From the NCBI GenBank assembly GCA_028699155.1, contig JAQVVD010000007.1, positions 1 through 50,528 of the forward strand: a stretch of 50,528 nucleotides of DNA, given 5' to 3'. A program made the translations under genes and the position numbers. A model generated the notes under the pieces. The model had not been told where the DNA came from and searched no databases. It was given only the letters and a program-made list of their open reading frames with translations. Origin of the DNA: Candidatus Peribacteraceae bacterium (lineage in GTDB: Bacteria; Patescibacteriota; Gracilibacteria; Peribacterales; Peribacteraceae). How positions within the stretch are numbered: position 1 is the stretch's first letter; every line of letters starts with the position of its first letter. This document shows positions 35,573 through 48,189 of the stretch, in pieces.

Positions 35573-36262
35573 TTAGTGCAATGACTGCAGCGTCTCCCAT
35601 CCTTTCTTCGTGAGCCGCATGTACTTGTGGTCCAGCGTGATGAGCTCCTCCTGACTGAGCTTCTTCAGTTGTTTCGTGACTGTCTCGCGCGTCAATCCGG
35701 TCATGCTGGCGAGTTTCTCATGCGTGATGACTGTGCGCTTGCGCAGAATCGGCGGCAGGATGCTCCGGTCATCTTTCTTATTCAGCAGTTCGATGGTTGC
35801 CAGGATGCGGTACTGCGCATTGAGGCTGGAGAGGAACTGCAGCTGAGACTGGTACTGCGCGATGCGTTTGCTGAGCATCGTGAATGCCCGCACGGCGGTT
35901 TGCGGTTTCTTCTGGAGCAGTTTCAGAAAGAAATCTCTGGGGAGCGTGCAGATGAAAGAGGGTTGCGATGTTTCCGCGTAGACGCCGCGTTCGATTTCCG
36001 GGGAGAACCCGATGTTCCCGAATACTGCTCCGGGTTTCAGGATATCCACTATCACTTTCTTACTGTCTGACATCTTGTAGAGCGTCACTTCTCCTTCCTT
36101 GAGTATGTACGTCGATTCCAGCGGCTCTTCCGGCGTATAGAGCACCTGATGCACCGGATATTCCTGATGCGCAGCGCCTCCTACGATTTCCATAATTTCC
36201 TCTTCGCTCAAATCCGCGAAGAGTTCTACCTGTTTGCAGTACCAGATTGGCGGTCGCGGCAT
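35573..36262 (-). CDS. Crp/Fnr-family transcription regulator
   Basis: Predicted 229 aa. An N-terminal cyclic-nucleotide-binding-type beta-roll (VLYTPEEPLESTYILKEGEVTLYKMSDSKKVIVDILKPGAVFGNIGF), dimer helix (TAVRAFTMLSKRIAQYQSQLQFLSSLNAQYRI) and a C-terminal winged helix (THEKLASMTGLTRETVTKQLKKLSQEELITLD). The Arg/Ser pair of true cAMP sites is not evident, so the ligand is open. No Fnr-type Cys cluster was seen. It is transcribed alone. Confidence 0.92.
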   Translation of the reverse strand: MPRPPIWYCKQVELFADLSEEEIMEIVGGAAHQEYPVHQVLYTPEEPLESTYILKEGEVTLYKMSDSKKVIVDILKPGAVFGNIGFSPEIERGVYAETSQPSFICTLPRDFFLKLLQKKPQTAVRAFTMLSKRIAQYQSQLQFLSSLNAQYRILATIELLNKKDDRSILPPILRKRTVITHEKLASMTGLTRETVTKQLKKLSQEELITLDHKYMRLTKKGWETLQSLH

Positions 36263-36293: not shown

Positions 36294-37238
36294 CTACAGC
36301 GTCGTTTCCTGCTGCGGGGCGAGCGGCTTGATGAAGGAGAGGATGCAATCCTTCATTTTCCCAATGAGTGCGTCCAAATCTTCGTTCACGAAGACGAAGT
36401 CGAAGAGGTCCTTCCGTTCATCGAAGAACTTGAGGTCTTCTTCCGCATTGCGCAGACGGTCTTGGATGCTCTCCTCCGTATCACGCCCCCTGTTGCGCAG
36501 CCTGTGCAGCAACTGCGAGAGCATGACGCGTTTGTTCTGCCCGGGGGGCAGCAGTCCGCAGGAGAGGATAGATGTGCGCCCGTAGTGGCGGGCAAGATCC
36601 TGCAGCAACTGCATTTCGGTGATGACAGTCGGCACCTTGCCCTGTTCCCAGATCGCTTCTATGTCACTCGCACGGTACCCGTACCAACGTTTCTCCGACC
36701 GGGAAGGAATCTCCGTCGCTGCGATGATTTCTCCTCTGTTCTTCAGTTCCAGGAACTGCTCGGTCGAGACGTACCGGTACTCCTTTCCGTCGCCCTTCTT
36801 TCTGTTGCGCGTCGTCATGATCGGCACGTGTTGCACGTAGTCGGATACCACGTTTGTGAGCAGCTTGTTCACCGTGGATTTCCCCACCCCGGAGGGTCCT
36901 GTGAGCGCAATGATGTACCCGGGGAATTTCTCCTGTTTCTCGCGCACCGATTCCACGGCTTCGTAGCAGATTTCGTACCGGCGCAGCCCCTGCCTGCTCA
37001 CCTGCGTCATGCGCATGCGCGGCAAAACCCGCAGGCCGATTGCCAGCGGGGCGTTGCCCGGAACCAGTCCCATCACTTTCTTTCCGTCGGCCAGTTCGAT
37101 GAGCGCGACTCTGCGCGGAGAAGAAGGAAAACCTTCGGGCGGATTGTGCACGGTCGTGTAGGAGAGGATCACTCCTTCCTGCATGTTTTCGCTGCGCTGC
37201 TTCTGCGCCCGTGCAATGAGTGGTGCGGAATTAGCCAT
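36294..37238 (-). CDS. DUF35-like OB domain fused to guanylate-kinase-like P-loop kinase
   Basis: Predicted 314 aa, last gene of the HMG-CoA operon. Residues ~20-95 match the DUF35 OB-fold pattern (GVILSYTTVHNPPEGF, then VALIELADGKKVMGLV and LAIGLRVLPRM); the Cys pairs of the DUF35 zinc ribbon are absent. Residues ~108-305 have a guanylate-kinase fold: P-loop GPSGVGKST (114-122), TTR (142-144), GKEY, WYG and the lid RLRNRGRDTEES. Against yeast guanylate kinase by eye, phosphate-contact residues (R38, Y50, Y78) are kept, but guanine contacts S34, E69 and D100 become Ile140, Ala173 and Glu208. Its ATG overlaps the thiolase stop by 8 nt. It may be a scaffold and kinase of the pathway, or an unusual Gmk. 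Confidence 0.75.
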   Translation of the reverse strand: MANSAPLIARAQKQRSENMQEGVILSYTTVHNPPEGFPSSPRRVALIELADGKKVMGLVPGNAPLAIGLRVLPRMRMTQVSRQGLRRYEICYEAVESVREKQEKFPGYIIALTGPSGVGKSTVNKLLTNVVSDYVQHVPIMTTRNRKKGDGKEYRYVSTEQFLELKNRGEIIAATEIPSRSEKRWYGYRASDIEAIWEQGKVPTVITEMQLLQDLARHYGRTSILSCGLLPPGQNKRVMLSQLLHRLRNRGRDTEESIQDRLRNAEEDLKFFDERKDLFDFVFVNEDLDALIGKMKDCILSFIKPLAPQQETTL

Positions 37239-38343
37239 TTGCGTGTTCGAGAACGTGGATGCAGCAGGTGGCTCCGGTGCCTCCGAAGTTGTGGGCGAGC
37301 CCCCATCTTGCTTTCGATGCGCTCAACTGCTTACTCACGTCGATGATCTGCTTGATTCCGGTTGCCGCAACGGGGTGGCCGCACGCCTTTAAGCCCCCGC
37401 TCCCGTTGATTCGCAGACCGGTTTCCCTCTTGTAGAGTTGCACGCCGGTTCCCGGCTGCGCAAATCCCATATCTTCCAGGCTGATGATTGCTGCGATGGA
37501 GAAACAGTCATGCAGTTCCACGGCACTCAGGTCACTGCGTGTAACTCCTGCTTCCTTGAGCGCCTTTGCTATTGCTTCCCTCGTTGCGTTGAATGACGTG
37601 AGCGACGGGCGCTGCGCCAGGCTCACTGTATCTGTGCTGACCTGTGATGCTGCAATACGGATGCTGCTCGCATGTGTGTTGGAGAGGATGCAGGCGGCAG
37701 CTCCATCACTGATAGGGGAGCAATCAAGCAGCCTGAGCGGATCTGCGATGAGAGGGCTTGCAGAGATCTGCTGTGCCGGCACTTCTTTGCGGAACTGGGC
37801 GAACGGATTCTGTACGGCGTTCCTGTGATGTGCCTCACTCACGCAACTCAGGTCCTCACGCGTGAGACCGTACTCGTGCATGTAACGCTGTGCGACCAGC
37901 CCGAAGAGACCGGGGAACGTGATGCCAGACGGCGCATCCAGCTCGCTGTCCGCCGCGCCCATGAGGGCAGCGGCGATTTCCTCGTTGCTTGCATCCGTCA
38001 TCTTCTCCGCGCCCACGACCAGCACGTTCTGCGCCCTGCCGCTCTCCAGCAGGCTGCATGCCGTGTGGATGGCAATGGAGCCCGAGGCGCACGCCGCTTC
38101 CACGCGCAGCGCCGGGGGATGGTGGGGGAGCATGGAGGCGGCCATGGCGCCGAGGTGCGCCTGCCCGCTCACGCGTTCACCGATCATATTCGCCACGATC
38201 ACCATGTCGATATCGAGGGCAGTGCACGGCGAGGCATCGATTGCCGCTGTGATCGCTTCATCGATCAAATCTCTCAGGCTTTTGTCCCAGTGCTCCCCGA
38301 AAGGGGTTTGTCCGCAGCCGACGAGTGAAATAGTCTGTTCCAT
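37231..38343 (-). CDS. Archaeal-type acetyl-CoA C-acetyltransferase (thiolase)
   Basis: Predicted 370 aa, SCP-x/archaeal-type thiolase. Visible sites: ALRVEAACASGSIAIHTA (nucleophilic Cys), AVELHDCFSIAAI (His), NGSGGLKACGHPVAATG (second Cys and His). It condenses two acetyl-CoA to acetoacetyl-CoA, the first step of the mevalonate route. Its ATG directly follows the TGA of the HMG-CoA synthase gene, and its stop overlaps the DUF35/kinase start, so translation of all three is coupled. The order synthase-thiolase-DUF35 matches archaeal operons encoding a substrate-channelling complex. Confidence 0.92.
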   Translation of the reverse strand: MEQTISLVGCGQTPFGEHWDKSLRDLIDEAITAAIDASPCTALDIDMVIVANMIGERVSGQAHLGAMAASMLPHHPPALRVEAACASGSIAIHTACSLLESGRAQNVLVVGAEKMTDASNEEIAAALMGAADSELDAPSGITFPGLFGLVAQRYMHEYGLTREDLSCVSEAHHRNAVQNPFAQFRKEVPAQQISASPLIADPLRLLDCSPISDGAAACILSNTHASSIRIAASQVSTDTVSLAQRPSLTSFNATREAIAKALKEAGVTRSDLSAVELHDCFSIAAIISLEDMGFAQPGTGVQLYKRETGLRINGSGGLKACGHPVAATGIKQIIDVSKQLSASKARWGLAHNFGGTGATCCIHVLEHANG

Positions 38344-39393
38344 TCAGTGTGTTGCGAGTGTTTCCGCGCGTCTGCGCAGTTCGCTGTAGCTCACGTACGC
38401 AGTTTCGCGTTCATCGGGCTTGAGCGCAATGCCGTCGCGCAGCATCGTCATCAGGAAGGCATCGCACCCTGCCCCCGATCCGTAGGAGACGAGGAGGATC
38501 TTCTCATCCTTCTTCGCTTCCTGCAGTACATGCGCCAGTCCGATCATCGAGCACGCGCTGTACGTGTTGCCGATGTGCGGCACGATGAATCCCCTCGCCA
38601 TCTGCTCTTTGGTGAAGCCGCATTCTTTGGCGATACGGGAGGGGAATTTTCCGTTTGGCATGTGGAGGATGATGTGACTCAGTTCCTGCACGTCCATCTT
38701 CGCTGTTTCCAGCATTCCTTTGATCGTTTCGCGCATGTGGTGGAAGTACCCCGGCTCTCCCGTGAATCGTCCGCCATGGTTGGGATACGACTCCTTCGAT
38801 GCGCGCCAGAAATCCGGTGTGTCTGTCGTGAAGGAGAGCGTTTGCTCAATCCGACAGATGGCATCTTTCGACTTCTCCGGTCCCAGAATCATTGCTGCGG
38901 CTCCGGCAGCCGCCGTGTATTCCAGCACATCTCCCGGTGCGGCCTGCGCCGTATCGCTGCCGATGGCGAGCCCGTAGCGGATCTGCTTGCTGCGTACGAA
39001 CGCATCGACGATCTGCATGCCGGCTGTGCCGGCTTTGCAGGCGAATTCCAGGTCTGCGCAGTGGCAGAACGGGTGCACTCCCAGCGCTTGCGCCACCATG
39101 CCGCTCGTCGGTTTCACCGCGTACGGATGGCTCTCCGAACCCACAAAAACGGCGGAGATCTCCGATGACTGGATTCCGGCGATCTCGATCGCCTGTTTTC
39201 CTGCTTCGAATGCCAGCGTGAATGCATCTTCCCCTTCGCCGGGCACTGTTTTCTCCCGCACGCCGATACTCTTACTCACCATCTCGCCATCCTGCCCCCA
39301 GTGCGCCGCGATATCTGTCACGCGGATTCGTTCGTTGGGGAGGCACATACCGAAGCCGATGATGGCTGAATGATTATCCGGCATAGATTTCAT
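38344..39393 (-). CDS. Hydroxymethylglutaryl-CoA synthase, archaeal type
   Basis: Predicted 349 aa, typical archaeal length. NHSAIIGFGMCLPNERIRVTDIAAHWG matches the family start; the catalytic Cys lies in CADLEFACKAGTAGMQ; other conserved parts are AVFVGSESHPYAVKPT and HMPNGKFPSRIAKECGF (His). It adds acetyl-CoA to acetoacetyl-CoA. The frame is open to 39456, but the ATG at 39393 has a good Shine-Dalgarno 9 nt upstream. Lies between HMG-CoA reductase and thiolase. Confidence 0.93.
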   Translation of the reverse strand: MKSMPDNHSAIIGFGMCLPNERIRVTDIAAHWGQDGEMVSKSIGVREKTVPGEGEDAFTLAFEAGKQAIEIAGIQSSEISAVFVGSESHPYAVKPTSGMVAQALGVHPFCHCADLEFACKAGTAGMQIVDAFVRSKQIRYGLAIGSDTAQAAPGDVLEYTAAAGAAAMILGPEKSKDAICRIEQTLSFTTDTPDFWRASKESYPNHGGRFTGEPGYFHHMRETIKGMLETAKMDVQELSHIILHMPNGKFPSRIAKECGFTKEQMARGFIVPHIGNTYSACSMIGLAHVLQEAKKDEKILLVSYGSGAGCDAFLMTMLRDGIALKPDERETAYVSYSELRRRAETLATH

Positions 39394-39402
39394 GCAGTTT
39401 GG

Positions 39403-39409
39403 CTCCTCC
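39403..39409 (-). promoter_or_regulatory. Shine-Dalgarno of HMG-CoA synthase
   Basis: GGAGGAG on the minus strand, 9 nt before the ATG at 39393. It decides the start among five in-frame ATGs. Shine-Dalgarno sites are rare in this window and occur inside this operon. Confidence 0.65.
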
Positions 39410-39456
39410 ATAGGGTGGCGTGAATTGTGCAATTTTTCAAACATTCTCCCGTACAT

Positions 39457-40695
39457 TTACCGTCCGAGTTCGCGGTGCGCTTTCGCGAGCGTATGGCTGG
39501 CTTGTGCAGCCAAGAGTGACACTTCTCCTGCCAGGACGCCTGCGGCGATCGACTGCGCAAGTTGCGTACATGGGCGCAGGGACGTTTTGGGGGAGAGGAG
39601 GAGACCAAGGCACTGCTGCTGCGCAGGCAGGGATGTTCCTCCGCCGCGCACGCCGACCATGAGCGCTGGCAGCCGTACGCTGATTCTCAATCCTCCTTCG
39701 CACTGTTTCACTGTCGTATCGGCCAGTGATCCTTCTACCACGTGCGCGGCATCCTGTCCTGTCGCCAGGAAGAGCGCTGCAACGATATTTGCGGCATGCA
39801 GATTCTTGCCGAGTGCCCCCGCAACGTTCGAGCCGATTTCCAGTTTCGCATGTGCCACTTCCAGCATCGTTTCCAGGGAAGATTTGAGCACGGTTTCAAT
39901 CACTTCTCCCGAGAGCACGGCTTCTGCGGTTCCTTCGTACCCGCGCCCCTGGTCATGCGTGCGCTTGCTCGGTTTCTTATCACTATCCACATTGCCTGCA
40001 ACGGTGATGAAGGCAACATCCTTGTAATTCTCGCTTACCCATACGCCGATTGCCTGCGCGGCGATGGTCACCATGTTCATGCCCATAGCTTCATCCGTGT
40101 CGCAGTAGATCGTGAGGAAGACGTGGTTCCCCTCGCTCTCGATTGTGTGTGAGAGGAGTTGCAGATGGGTGCTCGTCGCGATTCCAATATCGCTCCATTC
40201 AGATTCTTTTTGGCTTAGGAAAGCAATGAACGATTGTACACCCGACTTCGCTCCGGTTCCCGGAGCTTCGCCGGGAGAGCCTTCAAGGATGCGGAATGCG
40301 ATGGAGCGCGATGTACCATGGTGTACGGATGTGAGCGTCACGCCTCCTGTCTGGGAGAGCGCTTTGCATCCGCGGTTCACGCTCGCGACGAGTGCGCCTT
40401 CCGTCGTTGCGAGCGGCAGGTGCAGATCTGCCTTTTCTCCTGAGCTGAATGTGACACGCAGAGGGCCGGCGTAACCCACCGGCACCGGTACCGCGCCGAA
40501 CATCTGTTCGCAGTTCTTCTCATCCGCATGGCCTATCTGCTCTGCGGTGAGAGCGGTGTGCTTCAGGTCCACGTGCAGTTCTTCCTCCATACGTTGCCTC
40601 CGCACGTTGCAGCGGTCGGAAGGCGAGAGGCCGTCGGGGAGGGTGCGCAGGTCCACGGGAAACGGGAAACGGGGAAAGCAAGAATGCGTACGCAT
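39457..40695 (-). CDS. Hydroxymethylglutaryl-CoA reductase, class I-like
   Basis: Predicted 412 aa. ENC-like segment DEKNCEQMFGAVPVPVGYAGPL, TTEGALVASVNRGCKAL (catalytic Glu), DEAMGMNMVTIAA (Asp and dinucleotide part), and GVRGGGTSLPAQQQCLGL near the C-terminus; the final catalytic His is in LAKAHREL. The class I layout with a short N-terminus fits the archaeal soluble form, using NAD(P)H to make mevalonate. The ATG at 40695 has AAAGGAGG 7 nt upstream; an in-frame ATG at 40725 is the alternative. First gene of the operon with HMG-CoA synthase, thiolase and the DUF35/kinase fusion. Confidence 0.94.
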   Translation of the reverse strand: MRTHSCFPRFPFPVDLRTLPDGLSPSDRCNVRRQRMEEELHVDLKHTALTAEQIGHADEKNCEQMFGAVPVPVGYAGPLRVTFSSGEKADLHLPLATTEGALVASVNRGCKALSQTGGVTLTSVHHGTSRSIAFRILEGSPGEAPGTGAKSGVQSFIAFLSQKESEWSDIGIATSTHLQLLSHTIESEGNHVFLTIYCDTDEAMGMNMVTIAAQAIGVWVSENYKDVAFITVAGNVDSDKKPSKRTHDQGRGYEGTAEAVLSGEVIETVLKSSLETMLEVAHAKLEIGSNVAGALGKNLHAANIVAALFLATGQDAAHVVEGSLADTTVKQCEGGLRISVRLPALMVGVRGGGTSLPAQQQCLGLLLSPKTSLRPCTQLAQSIAAGVLAGEVSLLAAQASHTLAKAHRELGR

Positions 40696-40702
40696 TGTAA
40701 CG

Positions 40703-40710
40703 CCTCCTTT
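40703..40710 (-). promoter_or_regulatory. Shine-Dalgarno of HMG-CoA reductase
   Basis: AAAGGAGG on the minus strand, 7 nt before the ATG at 40695, the strongest ribosome site I noticed in the window. It favours 40695 over 40725. Confidence 0.65.
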
Positions 40711-40838
40711 GCTTCTACGCTCCATTTTCGTTTCCTTTATCTCCCTGCCACTACGGGCATGCGACCGTTCTGCTCTTATTTTTCAAAACTGTTTTCTTCA
40801 CTCCTTTGCTATGTAGTCTTTGGAGAGCTACTGGAGTA

Positions 40839-42092
40839 TCAAGTGCGTACCTGTCCGTTCCCTCGTACGATCCACTTGTAGCTCGTGAGCGCATCCAAAC
40901 CCATGGGTCCACGTGCGTGGAGCTTCTGCGTAGAGATCCCGATTTCCGCTCCCAGACCGAACTGGGTACCGTCCGTGAATGCCGTGGAAGCGTTGGCATA
41001 GACGGCAGCAGCGTCCACCTCTTGGAGGAAACGCTCGATTGCCTCCTGATCCTTCGCAATGATGGATTCGCTGTGGCCGGAAGAATACTGACGGATATGT
41101 GCGAGTGCTTCGTCCATATTCCGTACGGTCGCGATGGAGAGTTTCAGTGAGAGAAATTCCGTTCCGAAGTGTTCCTCCTTTGCCGGTTCCAGCAGTGAGG
41201 AATCGTAGGATCCATGTAATTGATCGAAAGCTGGCTTGTCCGCGAAGATGTGGACGTGCGATGCTTCGAGTGGATTCATGATCTTCGATAGATCACGGAG
41301 ACGATCTTCGTGGATGATGACGGTATCGACCGTGTTGCACACGCTTGGACGACGTGTTTTGGCGTTGAAGATAATGGAAGATGCCCTATCGACATCCGCC
41401 GATTTGTCGACGTAAATGTGCACGATACCCGTACCAGTTTCAATGACCGGAATAGTCGCTTCCTCGCGCACGAAGTCGATAAGCTTCTGGCTGCCCCGGG
41501 GTATGACCATGTCGATGAATCCTCGGGCATGGAGCATCTCCTGTACGGCACTGCGGTCAGAAGGAAGCAGGAGAAGCATGTCTTTGGGGATGGACGCATC
41601 ACGGAGAGTCTGATGAATGCAGGCAGCCAGGGCTTCGTTTGAGAACGATGCGTCACTGCCTCCCTTGAGAGTGCAGGCATTCCGTGACTTGAAACACAGG
41701 GAGAACGAATCAACGGTTACATTCGGTCGCGCTTCGTAGATAACGCCGATCACCCCGATGGGAGTGGAGACTTTCGAAATCCGAAGTCCGTTCGGTCTCG
41801 TGCGTTCCTCGAGCGTTCTCCCGACGGGCGAGGGGAGGCCGGCCACTGTGCGAACATCCTTGGCGATGGCATGGATGCGTTCCTGATTGAGCAGGAGTCG
41901 GTCGTACTTCGGATCGTTCTTGTCCATGCGCGCAAGATCTTTCTGATTTGCTTCGAGGATGGTATCAGCGTCCTTCTCCAGCTTGTCAGCGAGTCGGAGT
42001 AGCAGATCCTCAATATCCCACTCCGGAATCCCGGCGAGCACTCGGCTTGCTTGTTTTACCGCCTGCAGATGTTCAGTGAGACTTGTCATCAT
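40839..42092 (-). CDS. proA: Glutamate-5-semialdehyde dehydrogenase (gamma-glutamyl phosphate reductase)
   Basis: Predicted 417 aa, standard length. [37 protein letters not shown] is the family core; the catalytic Cys lies in [19 protein letters not shown]; the C-terminus [34 protein letters not shown] is conserved. It reduces glutamyl 5-phosphate with NADPH. The start (ATG ATG at 42092/42089) overlaps the end of proC. Third gene of the proB-proC-proA operon. Confidence 0.96.
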
Positions 42093-42873
42093 GGGAAAGG
42101 GAACGTGAGCGCTCCGCCGCCGCCGCAATCGCGTCACGGAAAATATCGGGCAAACCGCGTTCCTGGAGTACGCGCATTGCCGCCTCAGTGGTACCGCCTT
42201 TGGAAGTCACTGCATCCCGCCACTGCTCAGCGCTTCGCTCCTTCTCATCAAGTAAGAGGCTTCCTGCTCCGAGAAGATTTCTGGCGATTTGCGCGCTTGT
42301 TGCTTCATCGATCCCAAGGTCGCGTGCGGCGTTCTCGATGAGTTCGGCGAGGAGGAAAACGTAGGCGGGACCCGATCCTGCAACAGCGGTGAAGCCGTCT
42401 ATCTGCAATTCCTCCTTGAGGCGCACGGTCATGCCGATAGCTGAGAATAGTTCTTGGGTGTGTTTTATCTGTATAGAAGTGACCGTAGGAGAGGGATACC
42501 ACCCCGTGATGCTGCGACGGACACGCGCTCCGAGATTGGGCATAGCGCGCACGACAGCGGAGGCACCCGTGGCATCCGCGATGACCTTCATCGTGATCCC
42601 TGCCATGATGGAAATCACCAATTTGTCGGACCAGATTTTGCCGACTGCGGCCATCAGGGCGGCGAAGGATTGGGGTTTGACGGCAAGCAAAATGCATTCT
42701 GCAACGTTTCCGGCGTTTGCAGGATGATCGATTCTGCGATCTGTGGGAGCGATCTCAAGCTTGTCTCTGTGCTGGTCGCACAGCCAGACCCGATCGGTTT
42801 TTCTCTGGGAAGCGAGCCCTTTGTAGAAGGCTGAACCCATATTGCCGGCACCGATGATGACTGTAGAAATCAT
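42073..42873 (-). CDS. proC: Pyrroline-5-carboxylate reductase
   Basis: Predicted 266 aa. The Rossmann start [19 protein letters not shown] and the C-terminal substrate domain ([46 protein letters not shown]) are diagnostic. Makes proline from P5C with NAD(P)H. Its ATG overlaps the proB TGA (ATGA), and its end overlaps proA, so the three are translationally coupled. Confidence 0.96.
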
Positions 42874-43961
42874 GAGGTGGACGGGAAGAAGTAATCGGCC
42901 CGGATGAAGGGAGAGTATCCGCGTTTCCCCATGTATTTCATGAGAACGGAGTGGCCGTAGGCGGCCATGCCGAGTCCGATCATCGTTCCTTTTTCATCAA
43001 GAACGGACACGATATCGCCTTTTTGGAATTCTCCATCGAAAGTTCGGATTCCCACGGGAAGGAGATTCGCCGGTTGATCCGCACTCAAGGCTTTCCCTGC
43101 ACCGGGATCCACGGTCACGCTCCCGCACCGATGGTCGGCGGAACTGGCGAGCCAGCGGCGCGTACATGACAGATGGGAGCGCGTCGGGAGGATCGTGGTT
43201 CCTATCGCTTTGCCCCGCTGAATTTGCAGGAGTACGTCTGGGGTGGCGGCGTTGGCAACGTGCGTTGTGATTCCCTGTGCGGAGAGGAGCCGTGCCGTTT
43301 CAAGTTTCGTCTGTATCCCGCCGCGTCCGAAGGAGGATTTATGCCCGATGCGGATGCGGTTTATATCTTTGACGGGATGGAACGTCTTGATGAGTTCAGC
43401 ACCCTCTTCCTCAATCGGGCGATCGAAGATGCCATCGATATTCGAGAGAATGATCAGTGCATCGGCGCCGATCATCGACGCTACGAGCCCGGCGAGTTGG
43501 TCGTTATCGGTGAACATGAGTTCCTCCACGGATACCACGTCGTTCTCATTCACGATGGGAATAACGCCTTCCTGATATAGAGCGTCGAAACAACATCGCA
43601 TGTTGGTGTAGTGATCTCTGGTGCGGAAATCTTCCTTGGTGGCAAGAACCTGCGCGACGGTCAATGTATGCTCCTGTGCTGCCGATCGGTAGTTGAGCAT
43701 GAGTTCCACTTGGCCGACAGCTGCGAAAAGCTGGCGCTCGCCAATGGATTCGGCAGAGGATTTTTTGAGTTGTTCCATGCGGTTCTTGCCACACGCCACC
43801 GCTCCGGAGGACACAATCGTGATCTTCACGTTTTCCTTCATCAGCGCGGCAATCTGACGAATCAATCGAACGATTACGCCTTGATCCAACGTATTCTGTG
43901 GGGTCAGAAGCGCGTGCGTGCCAATTTTGACGACGATATTGGAGTACGGAGTTTGCTTCAT
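42870..43961 (-). CDS. proB: Glutamate 5-kinase with PUA domain
   Basis: Predicted 363 aa. Amino-acid-kinase core: VVKIGTHALL, ITIVSSGAVACGKNRM, VPIVNENDVVSVEEL-type segment, FGRGGIQTKLETARLLSAQG. From about residue 275 a PUA domain follows (GSVTVDPGAGKAL, FQKGDIVSVLDEKG). It phosphorylates glutamate, the committed step of proline synthesis and usually the point of proline feedback. The ATG at 43961 is chosen over a TTG three codons earlier. TACTAT about 27 nt upstream is a possible -10. First gene of the operon. Confidence 0.95.
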   Translation of the reverse strand: MKQTPYSNIVVKIGTHALLTPQNTLDQGVIVRLIRQIAALMKENVKITIVSSGAVACGKNRMEQLKKSSAESIGERQLFAAVGQVELMLNYRSAAQEHTLTVAQVLATKEDFRTRDHYTNMRCCFDALYQEGVIPIVNENDVVSVEELMFTDNDQLAGLVASMIGADALIILSNIDGIFDRPIEEEGAELIKTFHPVKDINRIRIGHKSSFGRGGIQTKLETARLLSAQGITTHVANAATPDVLLQIQRGKAIGTTILPTRSHLSCTRRWLASSADHRCGSVTVDPGAGKALSADQPANLLPVGIRTFDGEFQKGDIVSVLDEKGTMIGLGMAAYGHSVLMKYMGKRGYSPFIRADYFFPSTS

Positions 43962-44089
43962 AATTAGCAAAGAGTCATGCTCTTAAGCATAGTAGAACAG
44001 GTACTTCCCGAGGAACACCGTATTTGTCATCTCGGGTACCCCGACCGTAGTGGCTTTTGTGTTCCAAAATACCGAACATTGGGAACTCT

Positions 44090-45091
44090 TTATTTCCCCC
44101 TCGCCCCCGGCCCGACCTGCGATTCAAAAATCGTACATCCTTTCTGTGCACTGGCGAATGCCCGCACTTCCTCCGTTGCTTCATCCGTACACACGAGGTG
44201 GACGGTCGGTCCCGCGTCCATTGTGAAGAGGACAGGCAAGTGCTTCGTCTCTCGCAATGCCTTCACTTCTCCCACGATGCGGTGCGTTTCCTGTGAAAGA
44301 TACTTGAGCGGGGGATTGCTCGTTTCCATTACATGATGCATGTCGAGGGCATCTTCTTCCGATACGCGCTGCAGTTTCTCAAAATCTTTCTCCAGTATCG
44401 AGTCGATGCATTCCTGCTGCCTGCGTGTCCGAATTGCTTGGATGCGCGCGGCGAAGTATGGGCTGGTTGCCGCCAGCGCATGCCCTTCTGTGGAGCCGAC
44501 TTTCTTCTCCTCCCGACTGGGGATTACCACGATATCGTGGAGGAGCCAGTGGTTTTCGTCGGCGATTTGCACGGCTTTCGCCGCATCAATAGATGCGCCT
44601 TCTCCCGCTTCCAGCGCCACGAACCCGCCCATCACGCTCCGTGCTGCGGAGCCGGAGCCAAGGCGGGCAATGATGCTTACCTGCTCATCTGTGAGTTCCT
44701 TTTTCTCTGTGATCAGTGCGGCAATCGCGCGTGCCAGGCAGCTGAAGACCGCGGCCGATGATGCGAGTCCTACGGCCGGCGGAATGTGCGAATCAATGCG
44801 AATGGAGAGTTCCCCGGGGAGCGCATCGTCTATGCCGAGCGTTCCGAGGTATTCCTTTGCAAGGTCGATGACCTTCTGGAAACGGTCGAGGTGTTTCCCT
44901 GTTACCTCCCGATCTTCCCCCATGGTGGACGACTGTATTTTCAGTGTATCTGCATGATCGATCGTGATCTCCACGCTCGGTTCACTGAGCGTCATGGAGA
45001 GCGAATCCGCCATCGGAAGCCGCAGGGGATTATTCCGATTGCCCCAGTATTTTATGAAGGCGATGTTGGGAGTGGAGATTGCGGTAGCCAT
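44090..45091 (-). CDS. Mevalonate diphosphate decarboxylase family protein (substrate mono- or diphosphate uncertain)
   Basis: Predicted 333 aa GHMP-fold decarboxylase. STPNIAFIKYWGNRNNPLRLP, PPAVGLASSAAVFSCLARA (ATP loop), GSGSAARSVMGGFVAL (conserved Arg) and FTMDAGPTVHLVC (catalytic Asp) are present, so it should be active. In characterised diphosphomevalonate decarboxylases the first motif reads YWGK, with Lys contacting the diphosphate (Lys21 in S. epidermidis); here it is YWGN. This leaves open that it acts on mevalonate 5-phosphate. The ATG lies 9 nt after TACCAT of the heptad element. Follows the GHMP kinase gene. Confidence 0.9.
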   Translation of the reverse strand: MATAISTPNIAFIKYWGNRNNPLRLPMADSLSMTLSEPSVEITIDHADTLKIQSSTMGEDREVTGKHLDRFQKVIDLAKEYLGTLGIDDALPGELSIRIDSHIPPAVGLASSAAVFSCLARAIAALITEKKELTDEQVSIIARLGSGSAARSVMGGFVALEAGEGASIDAAKAVQIADENHWLLHDIVVIPSREEKKVGSTEGHALAATSPYFAARIQAIRTRRQQECIDSILEKDFEKLQRVSEEDALDMHHVMETSNPPLKYLSQETHRIVGEVKALRETKHLPVLFTMDAGPTVHLVCTDEATEEVRAFASAQKGCTIFESQVGPGARGK

Positions 45092-45100
45092 AGGTATTCA

Positions 45101-45185
45101 ATGGTAAATGGTAAATGGAAAATTGAAAATTACAGTTGAGCAACGATGCGCCAACCATTTTCCATTTTCCATTTTTCATTTTTCC
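45101..45185 (-). repeat. Heptad-repeat hairpin between GHMP kinase and decarboxylase, ending in a -10-like box
   Basis: Read on the minus strand: GGAAAAT/GAAAAAT units (45185-45155), a loop with TTGCTC, then TTTTCAAT/TTTCCAT/TTACCAT units ending in TACCAT (45106-45101), 9 nt before the decarboxylase ATG. Same parts and orientation as 7776-7860. The left arm lies inside the kinase gene and encodes its last ~15 residues. Confidence 0.75.
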
Positions 45186-45975
45186 CAACATCGTTGTTTC
45201 CGATGGCTAGTACTATTCCGCCTCCGCCGGTCCTGGCTCCGGCTCCCAGGACTTTCCCCGCGCCTCCGGCGCGTTCAATCTCTGCGATGAATTTCCGTAC
45301 CCCCTCCGGCACGACGCCGAGTGCAACCTGTGCGCGATGGTGGTCGCGCAGGACGCTTTGCAGGTTCTCACCTGTTGCCAGGCGCTCCGTACACTCTCCG
45401 ATTGTTTTCAGATGTGGCATCAATTCCTGCTCCCGCTCCTTCACCCAGGCGATGAGTTCCGGCGTGGTTTCGTTCGGCGTGCCGGTATCGATGAGCAGCG
45501 CTCCTTGTAGGAGGGATGCAGGCAATGAGATCGGTTGCACAGTCTCTCCTTTTTGGAAGAGGACGGGTTTCCCTTCCCAAATCACAGCGAAATCCAGTCC
45601 GCTGTGACCGGGGTTCACCGCATCTTCCACTGTCAGCGCCTGTGTGCGGCAGTCCTGCCCCAGGAACGCGCGTGTCACCCCGATGACGAGTGCGGTGGAT
45701 GAGCCCATGCCTTTCCCCAGCGGGATTTGGTTCACAATGGAGATTTTCCCTTTTTGCGCACCCAATTCTCCGCAACGTTCGACAATCGTGCCAAGGTATT
45801 CCAGCCACTCCTGCGGTGCATCTTCCCAGCGCAATTCTATGTTTTTCTGCTGCGACGGTTCAAAAATAGCCTGTATGCCGATGGGGGCGGGCATGGCGAT
45901 GCCCGGATAGCCGAATACCACAGCGTACTCGCCAGAGAGGATGATTTTGCCGGAGGCGGTGGCGCGCTGTTTCAT
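45130..45975 (-). CDS. GHMP-family mevalonate kinase (or phosphomevalonate kinase)
   Basis: Predicted 281 aa from an ATG at 45975, where the conserved start ATASGKIILSGEYAVVFGYPGIAMPAP begins. The ATP loop is PLGKGMGSSTA (85-95); NPGHSGLDFAVIWEG holds the catalytic-type Asp; the C-terminal Gly motif is VLGAGARTGGGGIVLAI. Most mevalonate kinases have GEHAVV; the GEYAVV here is more usual in phosphomevalonate kinases, although the rest looks like mevalonate kinase. The end (about residue 266 on: NEKWKMENGW...) is encoded by the heptad repeat. TTACCG-N17-TAAGCT on the minus strand just upstream predicts a leaderless message. Confidence 0.85.
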   Translation of the reverse strand: MKQRATASGKIILSGEYAVVFGYPGIAMPAPIGIQAIFEPSQQKNIELRWEDAPQEWLEYLGTIVERCGELGAQKGKISIVNQIPLGKGMGSSTALVIGVTRAFLGQDCRTQALTVEDAVNPGHSGLDFAVIWEGKPVLFQKGETVQPISLPASLLQGALLIDTGTPNETTPELIAWVKEREQELMPHLKTIGECTERLATGENLQSVLRDHHRAQVALGVVPEGVRKFIAEIERAGGAGKVLGAGARTGGGGIVLAIGNNDVGKNEKWKMENGWRIVAQL

Positions 45976-45986
45976 GCGCAAGTAGC

Positions 45987-46015
45987 TTACATGTTCTTCC
46001 CCCTTGCGGTAATCT
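45987..46015 (+). promoter_or_regulatory. Promoter of the prenyl diphosphate synthase, overlapping the divergent kinase promoter
   Basis: TTACAT (45987-45992), 17-nt spacer, TAATCT (46010-46015), then a GTG start at 46022 after 6 nt. On the other strand TAAGCT (45989-45984) serves the kinase gene 8 nt before its ATG. The two promoters share the same ~30 bp, so polymerases should compete. Confidence 0.65.
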
Positions 46016-46021
46016 TCCTCC

Positions 46022-46828
46022 GTGGGTAAAAGTGCTTCATTTTCCGCATTTGCCGGGCGTACACGGCCTCTCATTGAGTCTGCTCTCGACCGGTATACGA
46101 ATGAGGCGATACAAGGGTGCGCTCCCGGCATTCAGGAAGCGATGCGCTACAGCCTGCTCAACCCCGGCAAGCGCATCCGGCCGCTCCTCACGCTCCTAGC
46201 TGCGGATGCCTGTGGCGGCGATGCAGAGCGCGCACTCCCCGTGGCATGTGCTGTGGAGATGGTGCACGTTTTCTCCCTGATTCATGATGATCTTCCGGCG
46301 ATGGATGATGATGACCTGCGCCGAGGCAAACCGACCAATCACAAGGTGTATGGAGAGGGAGAGGCCATTCTTGCTGGTGATGCGCTGCTCACGCTGGCTT
46401 TCCAGATTCTTGCGGACGATATCCGGCCGCCCCAGGCGGCTGCGCGCTGCGCGAGCGTTCTTGCCCGCGCAATCGGTGCGTGCGGCATGCAGGGCGGCCA
46501 GTGGGATGACATTCGCGGCCTCTCGGATACGCTCTCGGTCGCCGGCCGCAAGACAGCCGCGCTCATCGAGGCATCCTGCCATCTTGGCGCCATCACGGCG
46601 GAAGCTTCTCCCGAAGAGATCACTGCTCTGCAGGCGTATGGCTGGAGAGTTGGTCTGGCATTCCAGCTCATCGATGATTCCCTCGATGAGGCGGCGAATG
46701 ATTGTGATACATTAAAAACCCAGGCTCGTTTGTTGACCGATGAGGCGGTTCAAAATATTTCATCCTTCGGCACAAAAGCATCGGTGCTCATTGAGCTTGC
46801 AGAGCAGCTCACGAAGCGTGATCGCTAA
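46022..46828 (+). CDS. Polyprenyl (farnesyl/geranylgeranyl) diphosphate synthase
   Basis: Predicted 268 aa. First Asp-rich motif in HDDLPAMDDDDLRRGKPTNHKVYGE, GDALLTLAFQIL, second motif FQLIDDSLDEAAND. Residues before the first motif (VEMVHVFSLIHDD) resemble IspA-type C15/C20 synthases. It joins IPP to allylic diphosphates and would supply the primer for UPP synthase next door. The start is GTG at 46022, decided by the -10 box 6 nt upstream. Convergent with uppS by 2 nt. Confidence 0.92.
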   Translation: MGKSASFSAFAGRTRPLIESALDRYTNEAIQGCAPGIQEAMRYSLLNPGKRIRPLLTLLAADACGGDAERALPVACAVEMVHVFSLIHDDLPAMDDDDLRRGKPTNHKVYGEGEAILAGDALLTLAFQILADDIRPPQAAARCASVLARAIGACGMQGGQWDDIRGLSDTLSVAGRKTAALIEASCHLGAITAEASPEEITALQAYGWRVGLAFQLIDDSLDEAANDCDTLKTQARLLTDEAVQNISSFGTKASVLIELAEQLTKRDR

Positions 46829-46830
46829 AA

Positions 46831-47508
46831 TCATTTCCCGAAACGGCGTGTGCGCTTACGGAATTCTTCGATCGCTTCCTTGAAATCGGAGACAGTGAAA
46901 TCCGGAAAGTACTTTTTTGCAAAGATCCATTCCGCATATGTGCTCTGCCACAGGAAGAAGTTACTTGTGCGCATCTCTCCCGCCGTTCGAATGATGCAAT
47001 CGATGTCGGGCAGTTCGGGGTTATCAAGGAGTGCACGCAGCGATTCTTCTGTAGCGGCGGAAGAGTCATTCATTCTGTGAATCGCACGTAGAATTTCATC
47101 TTTTCCGCCGTAATCCAGGGCGAGGTTGAGGCTGAAATCGGTGTAGGTTTTCGTTTCCTCAACGATTTCTTCCAGGAGAGTTCCCAAAGAAGGAGAGAAG
47201 TGGTCCGTGCGTCCGGAGTGGAACACGCGGATGTGGTATCGGTGGAGGTATTCACGTTGGTTGAGGAGGTATTCCTCAAGCATTTTCATCAGGTTGTCGA
47301 TCATCTTCGGGTCTCGCCGCCAGTTTTCCGTCGAAAATCCCCACACGGTTAGTACGGAGATTTCCGGATTTTTCCGGCTGTAATCCAGAATTTCCTGCAG
47401 ATTCTCAGTTGCTTTCCGATGCCCTTCCCATGGGTTTAAGGCATGTTTTTTCGCCCAGCGGCGGTTGCCATCGGGGATGATTGCCAGGTGGAGTTTATTT
47501 GTGGGCAT
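46831..47508 (-). CDS. uppS: Undecaprenyl (polyprenyl) diphosphate synthase, cis type
   Basis: Predicted 225 aa. IIPDGNRRWAKKH (pyrophosphate site), VWGFSTENWRR, NLALDYGGKDEIL and IIRTAGEMRTSNFFLWQSTYAEW are family motifs. The last is usually RTSGE.RLSNFLLWQ; here TAGEMRTSNFF is a mild variant. It elongates farnesyl diphosphate to the C55 carrier lipid for cell wall synthesis. The ATG follows TAGAAT (47522-47517) by 8 nt. Confidence 0.93.
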   Translation of the reverse strand: MPTNKLHLAIIPDGNRRWAKKHALNPWEGHRKATENLQEILDYSRKNPEISVLTVWGFSTENWRRDPKMIDNLMKMLEEYLLNQREYLHRYHIRVFHSGRTDHFSPSLGTLLEEIVEETKTYTDFSLNLALDYGGKDEILRAIHRMNDSSAATEESLRALLDNPELPDIDCIIRTAGEMRTSNFFLWQSTYAEWIFAKKYFPDFTVSDFKEAIEEFRKRTRRFGK

Positions 47509-47670: not shown

Positions 47671-48189
47671 TTACGTATCGAATAACAAGGCGAGCGCCTC
47701 CGGGAACCAGGGGGTGAATTGCTCTGGTTTCTCATCCAGTTCAACCAGGAGCTCCTCGAGCGTTATCCAGCGGACTTCCGCTACTTCATTTGGGTCCGGC
47801 TTCAGGGCGGTTTCCTCCTCCACATTGCCCATCAGAACGGTGTCGTACTCATGTTCCGCTCCGTTGCCACTGGGATCTGTTGCCTGATAGGCGAATGAGC
47901 CGATTTCCTTGAGCGGGCAGGAGAACCCCAGTTCTTCCTGCAGGCGCTTCTGCGCTGCGGCAATGGGATCTTCCCCCGGTTGCGGGTGGCTGCAACAGGT
48001 GTTTGTCCATAGCAGCGGAAAAAGCTGCTTCTTGTCACTGCGTCGCTGCAATAGCAGTTCGTTCCCGCCGTTGCGGAAGACGAAGACCGAGAACGCTTTG
48101 TGCAATATTCCATTGTTGGCGTGCGCATCTGCGGTGGGGCAGGTGCCGGTCTCCTTGCCGTCCGCATCGCAGGTGATCACGTTCCTCAC
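47671..48189 (-). CDS. idi: Isopentenyl-diphosphate isomerase, type I (Nudix)
   Basis: Predicted 172 aa. The active-site Cys lies in LLWTNTCCSHPQPGE, metal-binding Glu and Nudix helix in AAAQKRLQEELGF, and YDTVLMGNVEEE with conserved acidic residues. It interconverts IPP and DMAPP, required because the mevalonate route makes only IPP. The start is a GTG at 48189. A TACAGT box lies 12 nt upstream. Same strand as uppS. Confidence 0.93.
   Translation of the reverse strand: MRNVITCDADGKETGTCPTADAHANNGILHKAFSVFVFRNGGNELLLQRRSDKKQLFPLLWTNTCCSHPQPGEDPIAAAQKRLQEELGFSCPLKEIGSFAYQATDPSGNGAEHEYDTVLMGNVEEETALKPDPNEVAEVRWITLEELLVELDEKPEQFTPWFPEALALLFDT

Follow-up and report, generated by a model that had tools for sequence, protein, structure and literature searches.

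The window (the whole stretch of 50,528 nucleotides of a Candidatus Peribacteraceae contig that was analysed) encodes a thiolase, HMG-CoA synthase (HMGS), HMG-CoA reductase (HMGR), mevalonate kinase (MVK), diphosphomevalonate decarboxylase (MVD) and isopentenyl-diphosphate delta-isomerase (IDI), i.e. the complete eukaryote-type mevalonate pathway but for the step of phosphomevalonate kinase (PMK). The thiolase gene is followed by a gene for a 314 aa protein in which a DUF35-type OB domain is fused to a guanylate-kinase-like (GK) domain, and no other PMK candidate was found in the window. The features were as follows:

36294..37238, minus strand: DUF35 (OB) domain fused to a guanylate-kinase-like domain, 314 aa, proposed to be a phosphomevalonate kinase tethered to the scaffold (Pfam, AlphaFold2, Foldseek)
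36957..37181, minus strand: OB-fold DUF35 domain, aa 20-94, without zinc ribbon (Pfam and AlphaFold2 model)
36327..36920, minus strand: guanylate-kinase-fold domain, aa 107-304 (Pfam, AlphaFold2 model, Foldseek)
36873..36899, minus strand: P-loop GPSGVGKST, aa 114-122 (alignment and conservation)
36498..36566, minus strand: segment LSCGLLPPGQNKRVMLSQLLHRL, aa 225-247, kept even in decayed fusions, may serve as a structural or docking element
37231..38343, minus strand: acetyl-CoA acetyltransferase (thiolase), archaeal DUF35-associated type (Pfam/NCBIfam profiles)
38344..39456, minus strand: HMG-CoA synthase, archaeal type (TIGR00748, above cut-off)
39457..40725, minus strand: HMG-CoA reductase (PF00368)
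44090..45091, minus strand: diphosphomevalonate decarboxylase (TIGR01240, 195 bits, cut-off 171)
45130..46131, minus strand: GHMP kinase A, putative mevalonate kinase (phylogeny and HMM; 93 bits, under the equivalog cut-off)
46022..46828, plus strand: polyprenyl (farnesyl-type) diphosphate synthase
46831..47508, minus strand: undecaprenyl/polyprenyl diphosphate synthase (UPPS; TIGR00055)
47671..48189, minus strand: isopentenyl-diphosphate delta-isomerase type 1 (TIGR02150)

The fused gene and its operon

The open reading frame had been placed correctly in the preliminary description and lies on the minus strand; the overlap between its ATG and the thiolase stop, also described there, amounts to 8 shared nt (ATGGCTAA). 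The operon order in the family was IDI-UPPS-MVK-MVD-HMGR-HMGS-thiolase-fusion: in almost every genome with the fusion, it immediately followed HMGR-HMGS-thiolase, and IDI, UPPS, a GHMP kinase and a decarboxylase were located upstream of that block in the relatives. Some local peculiarities were observed. Genes proA, proC and proB (40839-43970) separate HMGR from the decarboxylase in the window, an arrangement not seen in the relatives examined, and a CRP/FNR-like regulator (35573-36262) lies directly downstream of the fusion, which it adjoins in few relatives only. In genome G033 (L062:1505-2602), the HMGS gene, placed between HMGR and thiolase, is encoded on the other strand (a local inversion or an assembly error), and contig C32 of G025 (L127) carries a second mevalonate cluster with a TAG inside HMGR (a second copy, a decayed copy or a mixed strain).

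Both domains proposed in the preliminary description, a DUF35-like OB fold and a guanylate-kinase fold, were recovered. Pfam matched PF01796 (OB_ChsH2_C) at aa 20-71 (6.9e-11, 42.4 bits vs. a cut-off of 27.1) and PF00625 (Guanylate_kin) at aa 110-299 (2.1e-19, above cut-off). The AlphaFold2 model (pLDDT 90.7) placed OB strands at 22-94, and the best Foldseek match of its GK part was yeast guanylate kinase 1gky (TM 0.88 on target, 2.1 A), other guanylate kinases being matched too; the OB region gave weak matches to ChsH2 (6ok1) and DUF35 (6esq). The fusion scored 88 bits against the guanylate kinase model TIGR03263, under its cut-off of 160, which is weak evidence because the one canonical gmk of the family that was tested also fell short (137 bits). 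A Pfam scan of the protein found no zinc-ribbon domain (zf-ChsH2), as described previously, but this absence is not a special trait of the fusion: most of the DUF35 proteins checked at the corresponding position in other Patescibacteria also lack it.

DUF35 proteins are scaffold subunits, including that of the archaeal thiolase/HMG-CoA synthase complex (PMC6996347). The fusion shares with the archaeal scaffold (6esq/6et9) the OB domain and, in Patescibacteria, the gene neighbours and their order, but differs from it in lacking the zinc ribbon and in carrying a kinase domain. In other Patescibacteria a stand-alone OB-domain DUF35 protein occupies the slot of the fusion; when their cluster is complete, these Patescibacteria mostly have an MVK together with a second GHMP kinase (kinase B, see below) or another GHMP-type PMK. 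Given its DUF35 fold, its constant place in the operon and the DUF35 scaffolds already known, we infer that the fusion would dock on the thiolase/HMG-CoA synthase complex.

Active site of the kinase domain and the missing step of the pathway

The residues of the GK domain were compared in an alignment of yeast guanylate kinase, 61 fusions and 29 canonical gmk paralogues from the same bacterial family. The guanine contacts of the yeast enzyme were replaced in the fusion (E69 by A173, D100 by E208, S80 by Y188, D98 by I206, and S34 by I140 or P139, the choice hanging on a one-residue gap); the acceptor-phosphate contacts were kept (R38 = R144, Y50 = Y154, Y78 = Y186), with R41 changed to K147. 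Apart from the one-residue ambiguity at S34, the assignments made earlier by eye hold against this alignment. S34 and E69 were replaced in 61/61 fusions and D100 was changed to E in 55/61, vs. conservation of all three residues in 29/29 paralogues, a pattern far beyond chance. The P-loop, R38, Y50 and Y78 were kept in nearly all of the 61 fusions, and the P-loop lysine and the lid arginines did not vary among the 55 fusions of genomes lacking kinase B. With respect to guanylate kinase (Gmk, PF00625; yeast 1gky), the fusion thus shares the fold, the P-loop, the R38/Y50/Y78 contacts and the lid arginines, but differs in the replacement of S34, E69, S80, D98 and D100, in the fused OB domain, in its TIGR03263 score under the cut-off and in its location in a mevalonate operon. 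Since the residues holding the acceptor phosphate of GMP are retained, the domain would suit mevalonate 5-phosphate.

The pathway gap of the window extends to the family. In most family genomes the only GHMP kinases were an MVK-like protein and MVD, and a GHMP-type PMK was mostly absent; these genomes otherwise lack the PMK step, while their decarboxylase needs its product. The same gap was reported for Peribacteria in 2016 (PeerJ), with genes up to mevalonate 5-phosphate and from mevalonate 5-diphosphate onward, in a pathway called near-complete (PMC4736985). Two other routes were considered and rejected: the MEP route, because its enzyme DXR was absent from the family genomes apart from two marginal matches, and, for G042 and G057 (99% complete), the route through phosphomevalonate decarboxylase and isopentenyl phosphate kinase, because the sole amino-acid-kinase gene in each is a UMP kinase and isopentenyl phosphate kinase is thus missing. 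Eight near-complete genomes (G012, G014, G018, G029, G043, G044, G046 and G073) lacked HMGR, GHMP kinases and DXR (one marginal match in G018); having the genes of neither route, they are apparently unable to make isoprenoid precursors.

Animal phosphomevalonate kinase (PF04275) is an NMP-kinase-fold enzyme that performs the PMK step, and thus provides a precedent. The 25 best-matching Pfam families of the fusion did not include PF04275, and it gave no match in the family genomes, a weak result because it had no match in the control genomes. GHMP-type PMKs (TIGR01220; 3gon, 3k17; yeast ERG8) carry out the same reaction as that proposed for the fusion, but their fold is unrelated: the fusion has the P-loop NMP kinase (GK) fold and not the GHMP fold. 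No guanylate-kinase-type PMK was found in a search of open-access papers.

Distribution of the fusion and decay of its kinase domain

The fusion belongs to a lineage of tiny groundwater bacteria. The search for the same fusion in related genomes, suggested in the preliminary description, found it across one Peribacteria family (about 60 genomes), and when 380 genomes from the phylum were searched with profiles, the two domains were joined only in this family. Among the matches listed from 84,980 species genomes, two were named and full-length, one from Candidatus Peribacteria and the other labelled Kaiserbacteria. Locus L146, named Candidatus Kaiserbacteria, carries HMGS-thiolase-fusion, and the name is probably wrong. 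Most of the 74 genomes of the same GTDB family had two PF00625 genes, a canonical gmk (~200 aa) and the fusion, and in the PF00625 survey most genomes without the fusion also lacked HMGR and GHMP kinases. Its apparent absence from G003 and G013 reflected a limit of the PF00625 search, and the fusion is present in both.

The second, canonical gmk for which the preliminary description suggested a search was found in most family genomes, but not in the source genome (1.18 Mb, 96% complete), in which the fusion is the only PF00625 gene; this agrees in part with one of the refuting conditions named there. No canonical guanylate kinase was found in G000, G005, G009, G021, G051 (a single contig) and G061. 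The missing gmk seems unrelated to the fusion, since G005, without gmk, has an already dead fused GK domain.

Genome G014 encodes a stand-alone GK protein related to the fusions (L071:8701-9627), with intact catalytic residues and without the OB domain, beside ribosomal protein and secY genes; it was basal to the fusions in the tree. This genome lacks mevalonate-pathway genes, and its GK protein, which does not fit a PMK function, may have another role. The tree did not support a derivation of the GK domain from the gmk present in the family, as the two formed separate long-branched clades.

The extra GHMP kinase B was present in nine family genomes, where it goes with a different decarboxylase. 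In a maximum-likelihood tree, GHMP kinase A grouped with MVK references and kinase B with PMK references (98/98 support each side); the PMK reference sequence used for the tree and the motif comparison was confirmed against 3gon/1k47 by search. The motifs of kinase B were PMK-type (GSGFD(I/V)A and GxGDC; compare 3gon, 3k17), but it passed the equivalog cut-off for mevalonate kinase (185-216 bits), with lower scores on PMK models, and resembled archaeal MVK structures; in 2/3 members tested, PMK and MVK models gave its substrate segment similar scores. The substrate segment of kinase A matched MVK and no PMK model, the A-like proteins of sister lineages passed the MVK cut-off, and motif 1 of kinase A reads GEY in place of GEH, as in PMKs. 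The assignment of kinase B rests on motifs and tree because the HMM scores favour MVK over PMK; an assignment from the HMM score as mevalonate kinase, by which the GK domain would be the MVK, was reversed by the motifs and by the tree with solved MVK and PMK sequences. As judged from these comparisons, kinase A is most likely the MVK and kinase B the PMK, and an intact GK domain would therefore take the place of kinase B.

Y154 was lost in 8/9 genomes with kinase B vs. 0/55 without it (Fisher p 2e-9, phylogeny ignored). Y186, R184, R252, R261, D150, P178 and S179 were mostly lost along with Y154, and R144 decayed too. The reading frame stayed open in 8/8 decayed fusions, which kept the OB-domain positions and a GK surface segment (LS-x-GLLPPG...R...LS-x-LLHRL); this persistence suggests that the GK domain itself may be part of the assembly. 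Mapped on a thiolase, HMGS and HMGR tree, decay required at least 4 changes (five if it is irreversible), and the supported independent contrasts were 4 in the expected direction, 0 against and 1 without difference, numbers at which a phylogenetic sign test cannot reach 0.05, there being only four to five independent losses. Decay follows kinase B and not the alternative decarboxylase, since G072 has this decarboxylase without kinase B and an intact GK domain. Intact GK domains and GHMP-type PMKs were thus mutually exclusive with one exception, G037, in which kinase B coexists with an intact GK domain, as expected for a recent gain of kinase B. This natural experiment is the strongest evidence for the GK domain as a PMK.

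Proposed function and alternative explanations

The role put forward as possible in the preliminary description, a kinase of mevalonate 5-phosphate, gained strong independent support from the exact pathway gap and from the repeated decay of the GK domain only in genomes gaining a GHMP-type PMK. It is very likely, from sequence comparison, that the OB domain of the fusion serves as the thiolase/HMGS scaffold and that the GK domain is a PMK acting on mevalonate 5-phosphate. The OB (DUF35) domain would replace the small scaffold subunit bridging acetoacetyl-CoA thiolase and HMGS, and ATP would bind at the P-loop of the GK domain. The 5-phosphate of mevalonate 5-phosphate would be held where the phosphate of GMP sits (R144, K147, Y154 and Y186) and the mevalonate part in the remodelled guanine pocket (I140, A173, Y188, E208 and probably R184 and R252), the fusion-specific R184 and R252 being candidates for contacts with the carboxylate and methyl-hydroxyl part. 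The product, mevalonate 5-diphosphate, would pass to the decarboxylase, and upon acquisition of a GHMP-type PMK the GK site would decay, with the domain staying in the scaffold. Direct channelling between consecutive steps offers no obvious reason for tethering a PMK rather than MVK or HMGR.

Three other explanations were weighed against the same data. The GK domain might be the mevalonate kinase and kinase A the PMK, kinase B having replaced a mevalonate kinase. The HMM scores of kinase B, its resemblance to archaeal MVKs, the score of kinase A under the MVK cut-off and its PMK-like GEY motif agree with such an exchange of roles, but the tree separates A and B in the opposite way, kinase B has PMK-type motifs 2, 3 and GDC, the substrate segment of A fits no PMK model, its sister-lineage counterparts pass the MVK cut-off, and a site built for an acceptor phosphate fits a phosphorylated substrate; this exchange is improbable. 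It is very improbable that the GK domain is a non-catalytic, regulatory module of the thiolase/HMGS complex sensing a phosphorylated intermediate, much as the GK domains of MAGUK proteins turned into binding modules: the domain and its LLPPG segment do outlast the catalytic residues, but the P-loop lysine and lid arginines do not vary in the 55 fusions without kinase B, and a GK domain without catalysis would leave the pathway lacking a PMK and would not be expected to decay along with the presence of a PMK gene.

The domain could also still be a guanylate kinase fused by chance to DUF35, especially in genomes without another gmk. It has the fold and the P-loop of a guanylate kinase, and both the source genome and the single-contig G051 lack another gmk. 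Against this, the guanine contacts were replaced in all 61 fusions, with or without a canonical gmk in the genome, and kept in the 29 paralogues; the fused GK domain of G005 is dead in a genome without gmk, so the fusion does not cover for it, and the decay of the GK site tracks the PMK gene. A retained guanylate kinase function is thus very improbable.

Taken further, the GK domain as a PMK probably represents a third, independently evolved PMK, derived from the guanylate-kinase fold and built into the scaffold, so that early and late steps of the pathway would be held in one complex; GHMP-type PMKs would have displaced the activity on several occasions, with the dead kinase staying as a structural part. 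This would provide a specific gene for a step that has been listed as absent from Peribacteria since 2016 and, if true, would add a non-orthologous way of carrying out the PMK reaction and show how nucleotide kinases can be retooled for isoprenoid synthesis. It would also illustrate how, upon repeated gene displacement, an enzyme of the pathway lost catalysis but was retained as a scaffold, and be a warning that the guanylate-kinase annotation in Peribacteria genomes may hide a pathway enzyme.
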